From a virus: 21,983 nt of DNA. The notes beneath the pieces were generated by a model, which saw only the letters and a program-made list of their open reading frames with translations, was not told the DNA's origin and did not search any database. The position numbers and the translations under genes are program-made. Positions 11,293-21,983 of the stretch are shown here, one piece after another (positions within the stretch are counted from its first letter, which is position 1; every line of letters starts with the position of its first letter). The stretch lies in IMG/VR virus record IMGVR_UViG_3300014839_000043, positions 1 through 21,983 of that record. One strand, given 5' to 3'.

Positions 11293-12810
11293 TTATTTAT
11301 TATCTACTGGCGCATCAGTTATTGCGCAGTGGAGTGTAATGAAGTTAGACGCATTTGAAACGGCATTAACTAAACTTACTCTTTCTACCTTTAACGGATC
11401 TATTATACCACTTTCTAAAAGATTAGTATACTGGTTATTTTTAAAATCATATCCTTGACCAGCGGGCATTTTAAGAAGCAACTCGGAGTAATCTTTACCG
11501 GCGTTTTCACAGATTTTCTTTAAAGGTGCGGTTAGAGCTTCCTTTAAAATCTCTTCGCCGACTGTTTTAGGCTCTAAATCGTGAGAAATACGCCATAAAG
11601 CCATCCCTCCTCCTTCTACTATCCCTTCCTCTAAGGCTGCTCTTGCCGCAGCTACGGTATCATCAGTTTTGTGTTTCTTGTAAACTCTCTCTAAATCAGT
11701 CGCTCCGCCTACTTTTATGATAGCAATTCCTCCGGTAAGTTTAGCAATTCTCTTTAAAATCTCGCTCTTTTGGTATTCGTTGGTGTTTAATTCGGCTTCT
11801 TGCTTTAACCTTTCAGCGAGAGCTTGGCCACTTTCAGTCTTAGCTACAAATAAAGTCTTTTTAGTATCAGAACTTACTCTTTGAGCTAATCCTAAGTGTT
11901 TAGTTATATCAATTTTATCAAATCCTACCCCTGTAATATCAGAAACCATAATCGCCCCGACTGTGGCGCAAATATCTTCTAGTTGAGTCCCGACTACTTT
12001 TATAACCAGAACTCCTAATCTGCCTTGTATTTTGTTAGCTACTAAGATACCCAGAACTTGCGGGTCAATATCAGAACAAACTATTACTAACTCACTCTTT
12101 CCGGCTTTGTCCATTTGGTCAAAGAGGGGTTTTATATCTTGAACGGTATTAAGTTTCTTTTCCGAACACAGAACCGGAATATTATCATAAACAGCTTTAG
12201 TCTGCGCTGGATCGTTAGCGAAGTAAGGAGAAATGAAACCATTATTACATTCATAACCTTCTTGAATATCAACCGAAGTTTCAAAGGTCTTGCTTTCTTC
12301 CACTACGATTACGCCTTTTACTCCGACTTTTTTGATAGTATCGCTTACTATTTCGGCTATTTCCTCATTCTCCGAGGACATCAGGGCTATTTTCTTTACT
12401 TCGTCTATTGAGATGGGCTTAGAAGATGCCTTGAGAGCCTCTACAATGCCCACTATGGCCTCTTGAAGACTATTCTTGATAATCATAGGGTTCTCCGGTC
12501 TAAGAAGGCTTAAACGGACAATTTCCTGTAAAAGAACCGCTGTGGTTGTCGTACCGTCGCCGGCGTCATCGTTAGTCTGCGAACTTGTGTTGCGAACTAG
12601 CCAGCTGCCTAAATTTTCAAACTTATCAGGGAAAGAGATTGATTCGGCTATTGTCGCCCCGTCGTTAGTGATATGCGGCAAAATAGGGTCATCTATTAAA
12701 ACATTTCTTCCGGCCGGACCGAGAGTTCCGCCCACAGCATTAGCTGTTTTATTAAAACCTACAATGATTTTATCAAACGCTTCCCGACCGAATACCAGCT
12801 CTTTACTCAT
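11293..12810 (-). CDS. groEL: Phage GroEL-type chaperonin
   Basis: A 505-residue group I chaperonin, the ATP-driven folding ring. The ATP-site signatures are intact: TLGPAGRNVLID at about 29-40, Asp50 in TNDGATIA (E. coli Asp52), Asp85 in DDAGDGTTTT (Asp87) and Asp384 in KTDDTVAAARAALEEG (Asp398). The apical GroES/substrate-binding strip is kept as GFISPYF at about 191-197 and hydrophobic residues in the two following helices. Compared with E. coli (548 aa) it lacks the Gly-Gly-Met tail, and the apical KAPGFGDRRK segment is reduced to KVVGTQ. A GroES-like gene lies one gene downstream. It probably folds a virion protein or assists host infection; the substrate is unknown. Confidence 0.93.
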   Translation of the reverse strand: MSKELVFGREAFDKIIVGFNKTANAVGGTLGPAGRNVLIDDPILPHITNDGATIAESISFPDKFENLGSWLVRNTSSQTNDDAGDGTTTTAVLLQEIVRLSLLRPENPMIIKNSLQEAIVGIVEALKASSKPISIDEVKKIALMSSENEEIAEIVSDTIKKVGVKGVIVVEESKTFETSVDIQEGYECNNGFISPYFANDPAQTKAVYDNIPVLCSEKKLNTVQDIKPLFDQMDKAGKSELVIVCSDIDPQVLGILVANKIQGRLGVLVIKVVGTQLEDICATVGAIMVSDITGVGFDKIDITKHLGLAQRVSSDTKKTLFVAKTESGQALAERLKQEAELNTNEYQKSEILKRIAKLTGGIAIIKVGGATDLERVYKKHKTDDTVAAARAALEEGIVEGGGMALWRISHDLEPKTVGEEILKEALTAPLKKICENAGKDYSELLLKMPAGQGYDFKNNQYTNLLESGIIDPLKVERVSLVNAVSNASNFITLHCAITDAPVDNK

Positions 12811-13415: not shown

Positions 13416-13438
13416 AAAGTTCTTAGGGTTCTTAAAAA

Positions 13439-13501
13439 GGGGGAATATTTAAAAGCGCTTGTATAAAATTGAGATAATTTATTCTTCTCGTATATTCCCC
13501 C
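13439..13501 (-). terminator. Terminator-like hairpin just upstream of the late operon
   Basis: In the minus-strand RNA, GGGGGAATAT (13501-13492) pairs perfectly with ATATTCCCCC (13448-13439) and is followed by five U residues. The loop is long, about 43 bases. Stem plus U-run is the pattern of an intrinsic terminator, although the large loop weakens it. It lies 24 bases before the first late gene, downstream of the leftward promoter, so it may be an attenuation point for late expression. Confidence 0.55.
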
Positions 13502-13592
13502 CTTAAGGGATGATAGTATCCACCTCATCCGTTCAGACGCCTCCGTCGGGATAGAAGCAGGTTAGAATCAATTTTTAAATATTTACCCTTTT

Positions 13593-13616
13593 AAAAAACA
13601 CCCAAAAACAGGGTGC
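13593..13616 (-). terminator. Intrinsic terminator of the leftward leader RNA
   Basis: In the minus-strand RNA, GCACCC, a seven-base U-rich loop and GGGTG form a hairpin followed immediately by six U residues. This is a compact rho-independent terminator about 180 bases downstream of the leftward promoter and well before the first gene of the late operon. Confidence 0.7.
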
Positions 13617-13795
13617 TAAAACTTTTGAAAACCAACAATAATTGTGAACTTATTGAGCATCTGGCTTCCGTTAGATATTATTAAAAATAAAGATTTGCAC
13701 TCTAGCCGCAGCCAAAGCGTCGTCTATGACGAGGGAGTTTTACCTAACTTTTATATCCAGCTTATGCTTTAGGTCAGGTAAAGTCTTTAAACCTA
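13593..13795 (-). ncRNA. Leftward structured RNA of about 200 nt, no recognised class
   Basis: The segment runs from a promoter (13801-13829) to an intrinsic terminator (13593-13616) and has no credible gene. Near the 5' end TTTACCT pairs with AGGTAAA to close a domain of about 40 nt. Further on, TCGTC pairs with GACGA and ACTC with GAGT around a GC-rich stretch. It cannot be matched to tmRNA, RNase P or 6S RNA from memory. It could be a free regulatory RNA, or the 5' leader of the late mRNA when the terminator is read through. Confidence 0.55.
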
Positions 13796-13800
13796 CCTCT

Positions 13801-13829
13801 ATTTTAGCATACTATTTACTTTAAAGCAA
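13801..13829 (-). promoter_or_regulatory. Leftward sigma70-type promoter with extended -10
   Basis: On the minus strand, TTGCTT (13829-13824) is followed after 17 bases by TAAAAT (13806-13801), and TGC directly before it makes an extended -10. The same 14 bases AAATAGTATGCTAA occur in the promoter at 16451-16479. A start near 13795 would give an RNA beginning TAGGTTTAAAG. No other leftward promoter upstream of the late genes was found. Confidence 0.7.
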
Positions 13830-13849
13830 GAGGGTGACAAGAGGGGGTA

Positions 13850-13878
13850 TTGACTTTATTCTTGGGGAAGAGTATAAT
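13850..13878 (+). promoter_or_regulatory. Strong rightward sigma70 promoter
   Basis: TTGACT and a perfect TATAAT are separated by 17 bases, close to the full sigma70 consensus. The start should fall near 13885. It is divergent from the leftward promoter, with only 20 bases between the two -35 elements. It drives a structured RNA rather than a gene directly. Confidence 0.85.
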
Positions 13879-13884
13879 AGGAGT

Positions 13885-14014
13885 GTAAGTTAAAAACAAA
13901 AGAATAAGACGGGCCCAGTAAGAAAGCAGATTTATGAGTTAATCGCTCATATCCCGTTGTGTGGCACTGGACCCGTCCGCAACTGGATAGATTAATTCAG
14001 AAATTTGCTTTTTT
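13885..14014 (+). ncRNA. Rightward structured RNA of about 130 nt with pseudoknot-like pairing
   Basis: It begins at the strong promoter and ends in TTTTTT (14009-14014). GACGGGCCCAGT (13908-13919) pairs with ACTGGACCCGTC (13966-13977), 12 positions with one C-A mismatch. Within it ATGAG (13934-13938) pairs with CTCAT (13946-13950). AAAGCAGATTT (13923-13933), inside the first helix, can pair with AAATTTGCTTT (14001-14011) outside it, which forms a pseudoknot or a competing terminator stem. A local stem GCAACTG / CAGAAATTTGC is an alternative terminator. No gene frame fits. Class not recognised. Confidence 0.65.
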
Positions 14015-14028
14015 ATTTATCAATATAG

Positions 14029-14169
14029 ATGTGCCAAGTTAAAATGGGGAGCATCTCAAAACAACTAGCCCATAAAACTCAACTGCTTAATCCGACCGAC
14101 AAGCTAAATAACTCCGACGAAGTTATCAAAAATCGCCAAATTTATCAAGCTGTTCTTACTAATAATTAA
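14029..14169 (+). CDS. Possible small protein (46 aa)
   Basis: An ATG-to-TAA frame for 46 residues, MCQVKMGSISKQLAHKTQLL followed by a polar part. Composition is protein-like (Lys, Gln, Asn, Ser), but there is no SD and no recognised motif. It starts 15 bases after the U-run of the upstream RNA, so it would depend on readthrough or on that RNA's termination control. Coding status uncertain. Confidence 0.4.
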   Translation: MCQVKMGSISKQLAHKTQLLNPTDKLNNSDEVIKNRQIYQAVLTNN

Positions 14170-15734: not shown

Positions 15735-16379
15735 ATGAAAATATTAAATTTATATGCTGGTATAGGAGGAAATAGAAAGTTATGGGGAGATGAACACGAG
15801 ATAACCGCTATAGAATTTAAACCAGAAATAGCTAAAATATATCAAGACTTCTTTCCTAAAGATAAAGTTATTGTAGCTGATGCCCATAAATATCTATTAG
15901 AACACTTTTCAGAGTTTGATTTTATTTGGACATCACCTCCCTGTCAGAGCTATAGCAAAGTAAGGTTTGTGGCTACTTATAGGGAAGGGAAAATCCACCA
16001 AAAACCAATTTATCCAGATATGAAATTATGGCAAGAGATAATATTTTTACAAAATTACTTTAAGGGGATGTTCGTAGTGGAAAATGTTATTGGGTATTAT
16101 AAACCATTAATACCACCCCAGGAACTAGAAAAACATTACTATTGGGCAAACTTTTACATACCTCCTACAAATAGACAAGGATTTAGAGGGCACGATAGTT
16201 CTATTGAAGATTTAGAAAAAATAAAAGGATTTAAACTTCCCAAAGATACTATCAATAAAAGACTATTATTAAGAAACTGCGTTGAACCGGAAATCGGGAA
16301 ATATATCTTAGATAGAATTGAGATTAAAAAGGGAAAAGTAATTGAAAAAATTGTTCAAACAAATTTATTTCAAATTTGA
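15735..16379 (+). CDS. C5-cytosine DNA methyltransferase (short form)
   Basis: A 214-residue cytosine methyltransferase. Motif I is NLYAGIGG (5-12), the catalytic PPCQ is at 68-71 with the active-site Cys at 70, and the ENV motif is at 116-118. This is short for the family (usually 300 or more), and the target-recognition part is reduced to about 50 residues. A Gln/Arg-rich segment PTNRQGFRGHDSS may play the closing-loop role. It ends in TGA and follows the adenine methyltransferase by 18 bases. The two probably form one modification operon. Confidence 0.87.
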   Translation: MKILNLYAGIGGNRKLWGDEHEITAIEFKPEIAKIYQDFFPKDKVIVADAHKYLLEHFSEFDFIWTSPPCQSYSKVRFVATYREGKIHQKPIYPDMKLWQEIIFLQNYFKGMFVVENVIGYYKPLIPPQELEKHYYWANFYIPPTNRQGFRGHDSSIEDLEKIKGFKLPKDTINKRLLLRNCVEPEIGKYILDRIEIKKGKVIEKIVQTNLFQI

Positions 16380-16450
16380 AAAGGGGATAACTATAAAAAA
16401 TACCTTAAAAACCCTAACAAAAACACATATTTACAGACCTTGACTAACAC

Positions 16451-16479
16451 TTGCTTTATTTAAAATAGTATGCTAAGCT
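16451..16479 (+). promoter_or_regulatory. Rightward promoter sharing 14 bases with the leftward promoter
   Basis: TTGCTT and TAAGCT are 17 bases apart with TGC before the -10. AAATAGTATGCTAA (16463-16476) is identical to the sequence in the leftward promoter at 13801-13829. A TTGACT also lies 12 bases upstream. The predicted RNA begins at about 16485 with TAAGTTAAAA, as does the rightward RNA at 13886. Confidence 0.65.
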
Positions 16480-16485
16480 ATAGGT

Positions 16486-16592
16486 AAGTTAAAAGAACAT
16501 TAATATCTGAGAGGAAAGAATAAAGGGATATAAAGTTCGGAGCCTCTAGCCCGACTAATCCATAATAGCCTTTCCTCTTGGATATAATAAAT
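16486..16592 (+). ncRNA. Structured 5' leader with two competing pairings
   Basis: AGAGGAAAG (16510-16518) pairs with CTTTCCTCT (16570-16578), nine perfect base pairs. Inside, GGAT (16526-16529) pairs with ATCC (16558-16561), and AGT-CGG (16534-16540, one bulge) pairs with CCGACT (16551-16556) around a ten-base loop. The loop holds CCTCT (16543-16547), which can also pair with the first AGAGG, giving a pseudoknot or switch. It leads directly into the small membrane protein gene. I cannot match it to a known riboswitch. Confidence 0.55.
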
Positions 16593-20489: not shown

Positions 20490-20636
20490 ATGAAAAAATT
20501 TGAATTCTGGTTTGTTACAATTTTGTCACTAATTGCTTGGAGCTGTTATATCACGATGAAAGAATGGTCGGCTTTAATTTGGGTTATGATTTCTTATATA
20601 TGGTTCTTAAATTATAGAACTAATAAATATGACTAA
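20490..20636 (+). CDS. Holin-like two-segment membrane protein (48 aa)
   Basis: A 48-residue protein with two hydrophobic segments, about residues 5-22 (EFWFVTILSLIAWSCYIT) and 26-42 (WSALIWVMISYIWFLNY), separated by a short polar turn, with a charged C-terminus. Its last eight bases overlap the start of the endolysin gene. Two short membrane segments next to an endolysin is the usual holin layout, but holins are diverse, so this is by context. Confidence 0.55.
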   Translation: MKKFEFWFVTILSLIAWSCYITMKEWSALIWVMISYIWFLNYRTNKYD

Positions 20637-20997
20637 CCTAATCTTTACAATAATATTTTCCCTCCTAGGAACGCACCAGTCAGCTTATCCCGAACCTAAC
20701 CTTGAAATAGTTTACTTTCCATCCCTAACTAATACCGAAACTGAATTTAAGATGAGAGAACAAGCCTATAATAAAAGTTTTAAGTATACTGAAAGCTTAG
20801 TGAGAATAGCAATTTGTGAGAGCCGTATGGGAAAATATCGGAAGAATTGGGAGGGCTCAAGCGCAGAGGGATTACTAATGTTTAAGCCAGCAACCTTTGC
20901 CGCCTATTGCGCCGGCTCAATAAAAAACGACAAAGATCAGGTAAATTGTTTTATGAAAATGTATCCGGAGAAAAAGAGCTGGTGGCAGTGCCGATGA
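20629..20997 (+). CDS. Probable secreted lytic transglycosylase (endolysin)
   Basis: A 122-residue protein with a Sec-type N-terminal signal (LIFTIIFSLLGTHQSA, about residues 4-19) and a lysozyme-like transglycosylase core. IAICESRMGKY holds the catalytic-type Glu at 64, and 'GSSAEGLLMFKPATFAAYC' (76-94) matches the 'GLMQF.P.TF' motif. Four cysteines (63, 94, 107, 121) could form disulfides outside the membrane. It is small for the family. It cleaves peptidoglycan glycan strands to release phage. The holin-like gene overlaps its start, making a lysis cassette. Confidence 0.75.
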   Translation: MTNLIFTIIFSLLGTHQSAYPEPNLEIVYFPSLTNTETEFKMREQAYNKSFKYTESLVRIAICESRMGKYRKNWEGSSAEGLLMFKPATFAAYCAGSIKNDKDQVNCFMKMYPEKKSWWQCR

Positions 20998-21113
20998 TTG
21001 TTTCTTAATAAGGGAATATAGTAAGATTGTAAGGCCTATATAACTTTCAGCCCAACTGTCTGGTGCTTAAGGTAGACAGAAGTTTTCAACGCAAGGGAAA
21101 AGGCAGCTTACTA

Positions 21114-21426
21114 TTTCCTTATTAGGGAGTAATTAACCCTAACCGTCTGACGGAACTGGTAGTTTGCTCTGTTGGTATGAGCTTACTTTTCATTAAGTGG
21201 TCACAGGTTCGATTCCTGTACTACCAGTAAATAATTCGTTCCTTTCTTAATAGACTCATAACAGGATTGTGAGGGAGACAGCCGCAAAAGCTGGATAAAA
21301 ACTATTAAAGATACTCTCATTCGGTCAAGCCATTGGCGGACATTAATTGGTGTTGAATTTATTTCAACTATCAATTCTAGTCTAGCAAAACCGCAGACTT
21401 GCCTTTCCTTATTAGGGAATAATTAA
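21114..21426 (+). repeat. 23-bp direct repeat pair flanking the tRNA segment
   Basis: TTTCCTTATTAGGGA-R-TAATTAA occurs at 21114-21136 (R is G) and at 21404-21426 (R is A), exactly 290 bases apart, with one mismatch. The copies enclose the tRNA-like element and one RNA domain. The 5' strand at 21004-21025 is complementary to the core of both. Confidence 0.8.
21157..21227 (+). tRNA. tRNA-Met(CAT)-like element with a short anticodon arm
   Basis: Acceptor TGGTAGT pairs with ACTACCA, the D arm is GCTC-TGTTGGTAT-GAGC, and the T arm is ACAGG-TTCGATT-CCTGT, followed by discriminator G. No CCA is encoded. The anticodon region reads TACTT-TTCATT-AAGTG, with CAT in a six-base loop, and the stretch between D and T arms is about three bases shorter than in bacterial tRNA-Met. 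Positions 14 and 21 are T instead of A. It could be a working tRNA, a decayed copy or a structural tRNA mimic. Confidence 0.65.
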
Positions 21427-21633
21427 AACCATCATTCCCTGTGGTGGCCAGTAGCGAGAGAAAGATGTGTGGCGGACAGAGAGCCGCTGAAGTGACCCAT
21501 TAATTTGGTAATCTGTAAATCTATACCGTTGCTAAGATACGACTTGTTATAAGGCAACAAAATTATAACAAGGACTGCTGGTCTAACCCAGCCACATCTT
21601 TCTTTCACTATTGGTAAATTAAATATAAATGAT

Positions 21634-21855
21634 ATGAGTGAAATAAAATTCAAAGCAACAAGAAAAAAACACGATTCAGGATATGCTGTTATAGATAAAA
21701 CTGGAGATTTAAAATATGACCAAGACAAATACTCTAAAGATGGTATTTGGTTATATCCTAAAACTGGAGAAAGAATAATGATTGACTGTGATTTTAAAAC
21801 AAAAACTTTTACGCTTAAATTTACTGGAGATGATTTTAAAGTAGCAAATAATTAA
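21634..21855 (+). CDS. Unknown small beta-rich protein (73 aa)
   Basis: A 73-residue protein with 'FKATRKKHDSGYAVIDKTGD', KDGIWLYPKTGERIMI and a C-terminal FKTKTFTLKFTGDDFKV, mostly predicted strands. It starts 19 bases after the structured RNA region and ends 36 bases before the cytosine methyltransferase. No SD. No family recognised. Confidence 0.55.
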   Translation: MSEIKFKATRKKHDSGYAVIDKTGDLKYDQDKYSKDGIWLYPKTGERIMIDCDFKTKTFTLKFTGDDFKVANN

Positions 21856-21891: not shown

Positions 21892-21983
21892 ATGAAGGTA
21901 TTATCACTATTTGACGGTATAAGTTGCGGTAGAGTTGCTCTTGAAAGAGCTGGTATTAATGTTGAAGAATATTATGCTAGTGA
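21892..21983 (+). CDS. Second C5-cytosine DNA methyltransferase, cut by window edge
   Basis: Thirty codons are visible, with LSLFDGISCGRVALERAGI, the motif I region of cytosine methyltransferases, and EEYYAS following as in DNMT3/Dcm-like phage enzymes. The catalytic part lies beyond the right edge. An AAGGA at 21880-21884, about eight bases upstream of ATG, is a good SD, unusual for this window. It differs from the LYAGIGG enzyme at 15735, so the phage carries two distinct cytosine methyltransferases. Confidence 0.8.
   Translation, partial: MKVLSLFDGISCGRVALERAGINVEEYYAS

Follow-up and report, generated by a model that had tools for sequence, protein, structure and literature searches.

A candidate large structured RNA with an embedded tRNA-like element in a viral contig

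Introduction

A homo-octameric RNA cage is characteristic of ROOL RNAs. GOLLD and ROOL both form RNA-only cages and occur close to phage tRNAs, and the GOLLD linker sometimes contains a tRNA (PMC12286853). In phage K and ICP1, RNA-seq revealed abundant, unassigned large RNAs that the authors compared to GOLLD and ROOL (PMC9241854, PMC7567579).

We analysed the IMG/VR virus contig IMGVR_UViG_3300014839_000043 (21,983 bases; hereafter the window), which contains a gene-free, strongly folding stretch near its right end. Like GOLLD (RF02032), a large phage noncoding RNA with several structured domains and at times a tRNA inside or adjacent (PMC12286853), the stretch has a tRNA-like element inside it and comes from a virus record. 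It differs from GOLLD in length (approximately 636 nt, against 800 nt or more), in the lack of a match to the GOLLD model at E 10 and in its tRNA-like element, which is degenerate and lies in the first half. With ROOL (RF03087), it shares a similar length, a phage or prophage setting and proximity to tRNAs, but it does not match the ROOL model and has an unusual folding energy that a control ROOL lacks. The large RNAs seen in phage K and ICP1 are likewise phage noncoding transcripts likened to GOLLD and ROOL, although those were observed by RNA-seq, whereas the candidate RNA of the window is known from sequence alone and has a tRNA-like core.

Results

A gene-free stretch among early-type genes

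Using a home-made gene caller, we found no ORF scored as coding between positions 20998 and 21633 of the plus strand (636 nt), in agreement with the gene-free stretch claimed in the preliminary description. Only two other gaps of at least 250 nt were found in the window. Two minus-strand ORFs within the stretch have no PHROG matches and, between them, a single sub-threshold Pfam match. The stretch fills the interval from just past the stop of one ORF up to the start codon of the next, and all three lie on the plus strand amid early-type genes (NinG, SSB-like and methyltransferases). On this strand, no promoter was recognized ahead of the stretch and no intrinsic terminator past it. The locus is arranged as follows.

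20629–20997, plus strand: upstream neighbour, a 122-aa ORF weakly similar to SLT transglycosylases (Pfam SLT, E 0.063, which misses the cut-off)
20998–21633, plus strand: gene-free stretch taken as a large RNA, given the lack of a coding ORF and the strand-biased folding; the bounds are those of the ORF gap and are predicted
21634–21855, plus strand: downstream neighbour, a 73-aa ORF with no assigned function
21892–21983, plus strand: start of a DNA methyltransferase gene, truncated by the end of the window (PHROG 116, E 5e-05)

Elsewhere, the window encodes a chaperonin GroEL (11293–12810; PHROG 5725, E 4e-109), a gene that many relatives also have ahead of their terminase, and a DNA cytosine methylase (15735–16379) that is 89% identical across 65 residues to L044:13-586; L044 is a 1.0-Mb uncultured bacterial metagenome-assembled genome (MAG), and the match hints at the host group. 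A second gene-free gap (13416–14043), at the junction where two gene blocks diverge, is strongly folded as well (z −3.4 to −6.4 on the plus strand and −5.6 on the minus strand) and has a long hairpin at about 13909–13979 (GACGGGCCCAGT...CACTGGACCCGTC). Positions 13743–13841 and 16439–16540 are copies in inverted orientation (71% identity across 104 nt).

Strand-biased folding

The plus strand of the stretch has a minimum free energy of −184.9 kcal/mol and lies below every shuffle in four runs, with an overall z of −4.3 to −6.0 that varies with the number of shuffles. One run gave z −5.9 (0 of 60 shuffles as good; minus strand, z −2.8), a second z −4.3 (0 of 100), and limiting the pairing span to 210 nt gave z −5.1 (0 of 200). 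The stretch also folded better than coding controls; eleven stretches of matching length sampled for comparison, folded on both strands, were all weaker (z +2.6 to −3.5). The plus strand is favoured over the minus strand in each of three domains described below, and removal of the tRNA-like part left z at −4.6; therefore, the folding signal is not due to the tRNA. The stretch, several hundred nucleotides long and gene-free, thereby has multi-domain structure beyond chance. Folding energy by itself is a weak marker: by the same measure, a known ROOL RNA (pMP118; its strand in the locus unchecked) reached a z of only −0.1 or −1.3, so such energy is neither required for nor proof of an RNA of this kind, and 13% of gap folds in the related phage group reach z −5.

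Predicted folds restricted to local pairing divide the stretch into three domains, with a tRNA-like element between the first two.

20998–21132, plus strand: domain 1, a bulged closing helix of about 30 bp with a small branched head (predicted folds; z −2.8 to −3.1, minus strand −0.7)
21001–21018, plus strand: copy 1 of an 18-nt self-complementary motif (TTTCTTAATAAGGGAATA), 5′ strand of the domain 1 helix
21114–21136, plus strand: motif copy 2, within a 23-nt repeat (TTTCCTTATTAGGGAGTAATTAA), 3′ strand of the domain 1 helix
21155–21228, plus strand: tRNA-like element (Rfam tRNA, 34.5 bits; ARAGORN tRNA-???; cloverleaf in folds)
21232–21425, plus strand: domain 2, multibranched (predicted folds; z −1.9 to −2.3, minus strand about 0)
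21243–21252, plus strand: partial fourth motif copy (TTTCTTAATA), a direct repeat, 5′ strand of domain 2
21404–21426, plus strand: motif copy 3, within the second 23-nt repeat (TTTCCTTATTAGGGAATAATTAA), 3′ strand of domain 2; can also pair with 20998–21016
21429–21447, plus strand: 7-bp linker hairpin (CCATCAT/GTGGTGG) joining domains 2 and 3 (predicted folds)
21448–21614, plus strand: domain 3, a 21-bp closing stem around five hairpins (z −6.0; second run −7.2, minus strand −5.0)

By a wide margin, domain 3 folds most strongly, reaching z −6.0 to −7.2 alone. Its closing stem (21448–21469 with 21593–21614) confirms the stacked helices proposed earlier for a final domain and encloses hairpins at 21471–21488, 21491–21501, 21505–21535, 21543–21572 and 21577–21592, the fourth of which is the perfect 10-bp hairpin also noted then (21543–21552 with 21563–21572). 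The helix previously placed at 21004–21025 with 21107–21126 is present and even longer than described (20998–21030 with 21103–21132, small bulges included). A helix of this length arose in 5 of 200 shuffled folds and is alone only mildly unusual; its length is partly due to the self-complementary repeat, whereas an adjoining perfect 8 bp (ATAGTAAG/CTTACTAT) is not. Domain 2 is the least certain of the domains because its 5′ strand has two partners: it closes either through 21232–21244 with 21414–21425 plus a sub-domain at 21245–21311, or through 21243–21253 with 21408–21418. The multihairpin domain expected at 21246–21310 was accordingly found (21245–21253 with 21302–21311, 9 bp), but as one of two competing folds, its 5′ strand pairing alternatively with 21408–21418. 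A hairpin at 21345–21376 was stable across all folds.

The tRNA-like element

The element recognized between domains in the preliminary description scores 34.5 bits against the Rfam tRNA model (RF00005; gathering cut-off, 29) over 21157–21227 and is called as a tRNA by ARAGORN, which cannot assign an anticodon. The acceptor stem (TGGTAGT/ACTACCA; 9 bp with flanks) and the standard D and T arms are intact. The anticodon arm (TACTT-TTCATT-AAGTG) has a 6-nt loop with CAT inside, the variable loop has 3 nt and no CCA is encoded. Although it passes the tRNA cut-off, the element is set apart by these features, and by its embedding in a larger structure, from a functional tRNA, which would have a canonical cloverleaf with a 7-nt anticodon loop and a readable anticodon. 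Ordinary CAT tRNAs occur in phages of the same clade (L056, L068 and L078), and derivation of the element from such a tRNA is plausible.

The element could itself be the working part of the locus—a CAT-type phage tRNA, or a decoy whose shortened anticodon loop resists proper cutting by host anticodon nucleases—with flanks that only protect it or help to process it. The intact acceptor stem and arms, the CAT tRNAs of the clade and a tRNA-Leu that a long stem encloses in the related contig L015 favour this explanation, but the 6-nt and 3-nt loops and the missing CCA speak against a normal tRNA active in translation, roughly 560 nt of structure far exceeds what tRNA processing needs, and tRNA clusters of the same clade do without such flanks. 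We consider it unlikely.

A repeated self-complementary motif and alternative pairings

The 18-nt motif, which the preliminary description did not mention, is an imperfect palindrome present in three copies in the same direction within the stretch and in none elsewhere in the window (0.07 expected). The 23-nt repeats at 21114 and 21404 are identical at 22 of 23 positions. Motif strands are computed to pair in several combinations, at −16 to −25 kcal/mol for the main pairs and −8 kcal/mol for the domain 2 closure. In an unrestricted fold, the 5′ end (20995–21016) pairs with 21403–21424 and not with the 3′ strand of domain 1, because the two 3′ strands are near-identical 23-mers. A computed dimer is 12 kcal/mol better than two monomers, a gain of the model that hints at self-association and is suggestive only.

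Read by eye, the shared sequence would reach a few bases further: AAAANNGCAG..CTT lies upstream of both 3′ strands, and GATTGTRAGG lies 22–24 nt past the start of both TTTCTTAATA strands. This extension suggests that domains 1 and 2 may have arisen by duplication; a MAFFT alignment did not place their 5′ parts in the duplication register. A repeated 9-mer (TGGCGGACA) was dropped, its frequency being about that expected by chance for 640 nt.

Alternative pairings of similar energy (the 21001 strand with 21114 or 21404, and the two domain 2 closures) are also what a cis-acting leader or operon-internal element might use to control the 73-aa ORF and the methyltransferase genes, and about 20 nt separate the end of domain 3 from the following start codon, which is on the same strand. 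Such an element is nonetheless distinctly unlikely, given that no riboswitch or leader family in Rfam matched the region, that the plus strand lacks an intrinsic terminator and that 600 nt plus a tRNA would be unusual for a leader.

The motif could alternatively act as DNA, its three copies forming a binding array for a phage protein (an operator, replication or packaging site) with the RNA helix as a by-product. Its confinement to this stretch is in line with such an array, which would, however, leave unexplained the strand bias, the tRNA-like element, the adjoining perfect 8-bp helix and domain 3, which lacks a copy of the motif and has z −7; we regard this explanation as very unlikely.

Comparison with known families and searches for homologues

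The preliminary description held that the RNA might belong to ROOL or GOLLD, and this was not borne out. Neither the ROOL nor the GOLLD covariance model matched the region even at E 10, where membership is taken as a score above 99.1 bits for ROOL and as a match to the conserved 3′ region above 150 bits for GOLLD. The ROOL search recovered the known ROOL of pMP118 of Ligilactobacillus salivarius at 130.4 bits; the GOLLD search, run without a true GOLLD as a positive control, gave only signals below the cut-off in five control genomes. A divergent ROOL or GOLLD member beyond the reach of the Rfam models would agree with the similar length, the phage setting and the nearby tRNA, but is highly improbable given the silence at E 10 against 130 bits for the control and a build—a string of locally closed domains—that folds far better than ROOL by the same measure.

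Relatives of the virus were collected through a terminase search of viral contigs (11, then 80 with a profile). Blastn of the region against these relatives (viral contigs and MAGs) gave no matches, and covariance models built from domain 1 and domain 3 as single sequences had no further match across 46 records. Phage, plasmid and E. coli sequences yielded only tRNA or chance matches by blastn, and only short chance matches came from 380 genomes of the phylum to which MAG L044 belongs. Scans of viral contigs for the exact motifs CCTTATTAGGGANTAATTAA and AAGATGTGTGGCGGACAGA and for the T-arm pattern of the tRNA had no matches; 20 matches to CCTTATTAGGGANTAA, many within ORFs, were attributed to chance, and five matches to the duplicated 5′ motif had no further similarity. 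The closest near-complete relative (G016; terminase 78% identical) keeps NinG (56%) and has no match to the RNA region of the window or to the genes after NinG. A structured-looking gap in this relative (L139:8029-8310) reads as an open coding frame.

Comparable regions in related phages

We scanned gene-free gaps over 1.02 Mb of terminase relatives and refolded them with more shuffles. Phages sharing the terminase carry comparable gene-free folded regions of 390–1160 nt, with z of −5 to −11.

L142:9158-9801: z −9 to −11; 644-nt gap that ends just ahead of a start codon near a divergent junction
L142:17308-17795: z −5 to −10
L142:340-960, minus strand: z about −4 to −5; tRNA-Asn inside
L078:4536-5171: z about −10; tRNA-Met (CAT) inside and a terminator-like hairpin directly after
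L070:290-1040, minus strand: z about −11; five adjoining long-stemmed domains in 750 nt
L015:12209-13369: z −9; tRNA-Leu inside an 11-bp stem; 3′ domain closed by a second stem, of about 23 bp

For five of the six, it is evident which strand folds better; the L015 region is less certain as a structured RNA because its other strand scores lower still (−14). Drawn folds of these regions are strings of domains with closing stems of roughly 10–25 bp. Three contain a genuine tRNA, so that four regions, including that of the window, hold tRNA or tRNA-like sequence. The tRNA regions of other clade members (L068, L105, L106 and L056) fold like shuffles. Among the seven regions compared, no 7- to 10-mers were shared above chance outside the tRNA parts; none of the relatives' regions reaches an Rfam cut-off except via tRNAs, and those of L070 and L078 have no blastn match in phage records. 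Unrelated viral contigs offered only four gaps for comparison, one of them at z −5.7, and enrichment in the clade is thus not established.

Within L142, positions 578–752 of the minus strand resemble a tRNA-Leu split into its 5′ and 3′ ends by about 100 nt of other structure, and give a sub-threshold manA match (20.6 bits; cut-off, 55.2). A gap at L083:2118-2568 was set aside, as it is full of short repeats (AAAGTCACAT and CCTAACCTACC) and is probably a DNA element and not an RNA.

Discussion

On balance, we favour the view that the region encodes a GOLLD/ROOL-like noncoding RNA of about 610–630 nt, composed of three long-stemmed domains and a degenerate tRNA; by analogy, its role would most likely be structural, as a folded particle. 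A new class of the same kind as ROOL and GOLLD is the most likely reading. Against this view stand the lack of homologues in the searches above, the weakness of folding energy as a marker, the lack of a recognized promoter or terminator on the plus strand and the absence of the region from G016, the closest near-complete relative. The more general claim of the preliminary description, a large structured phage RNA around a tRNA, draws support from the strand-biased folding, the absence of genes and the comparable regions in related phages, and the tRNA-like cloverleaf and the motif repetition were likewise observed directly.

Transcription, stability, self-association and biological role are parts of this picture that we infer. 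The region would be transcribed rightward along with the early genes, giving a noncoding RNA whose three domains follow one another in a string, the degenerate tRNA sitting between domains 1 and 2. The RNA would accumulate during infection, as GOLLD and ROOL are proposed to do, and act as a folded, possibly self-associating particle that displays or encloses the tRNA-like element. With their self-complementary strands, the domains could exchange pairing partners, either inside one molecule or across molecules.

Related phages carry other large, gene-free structured regions that are absent from Rfam and share no sequence. More tentatively, and with doubt prevailing, the phage clade (shared terminase; GroEL in many) may keep large multi-domain structural RNAs whose sequences turn over so fast that each phage has its own, with the same build of long-stemmed domains and an often embedded tRNA; strand exchange between closing stems, within or between molecules, might drive assembly in the member described here. 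If related phages do have large RNAs of their own that differ from phage to phage but are alike in build, this kind of RNA would be much broader than its Rfam families, and family-based searches would miss most such RNAs. These phages would then form a set in which a common build, and not a common sequence, could be linked to function.
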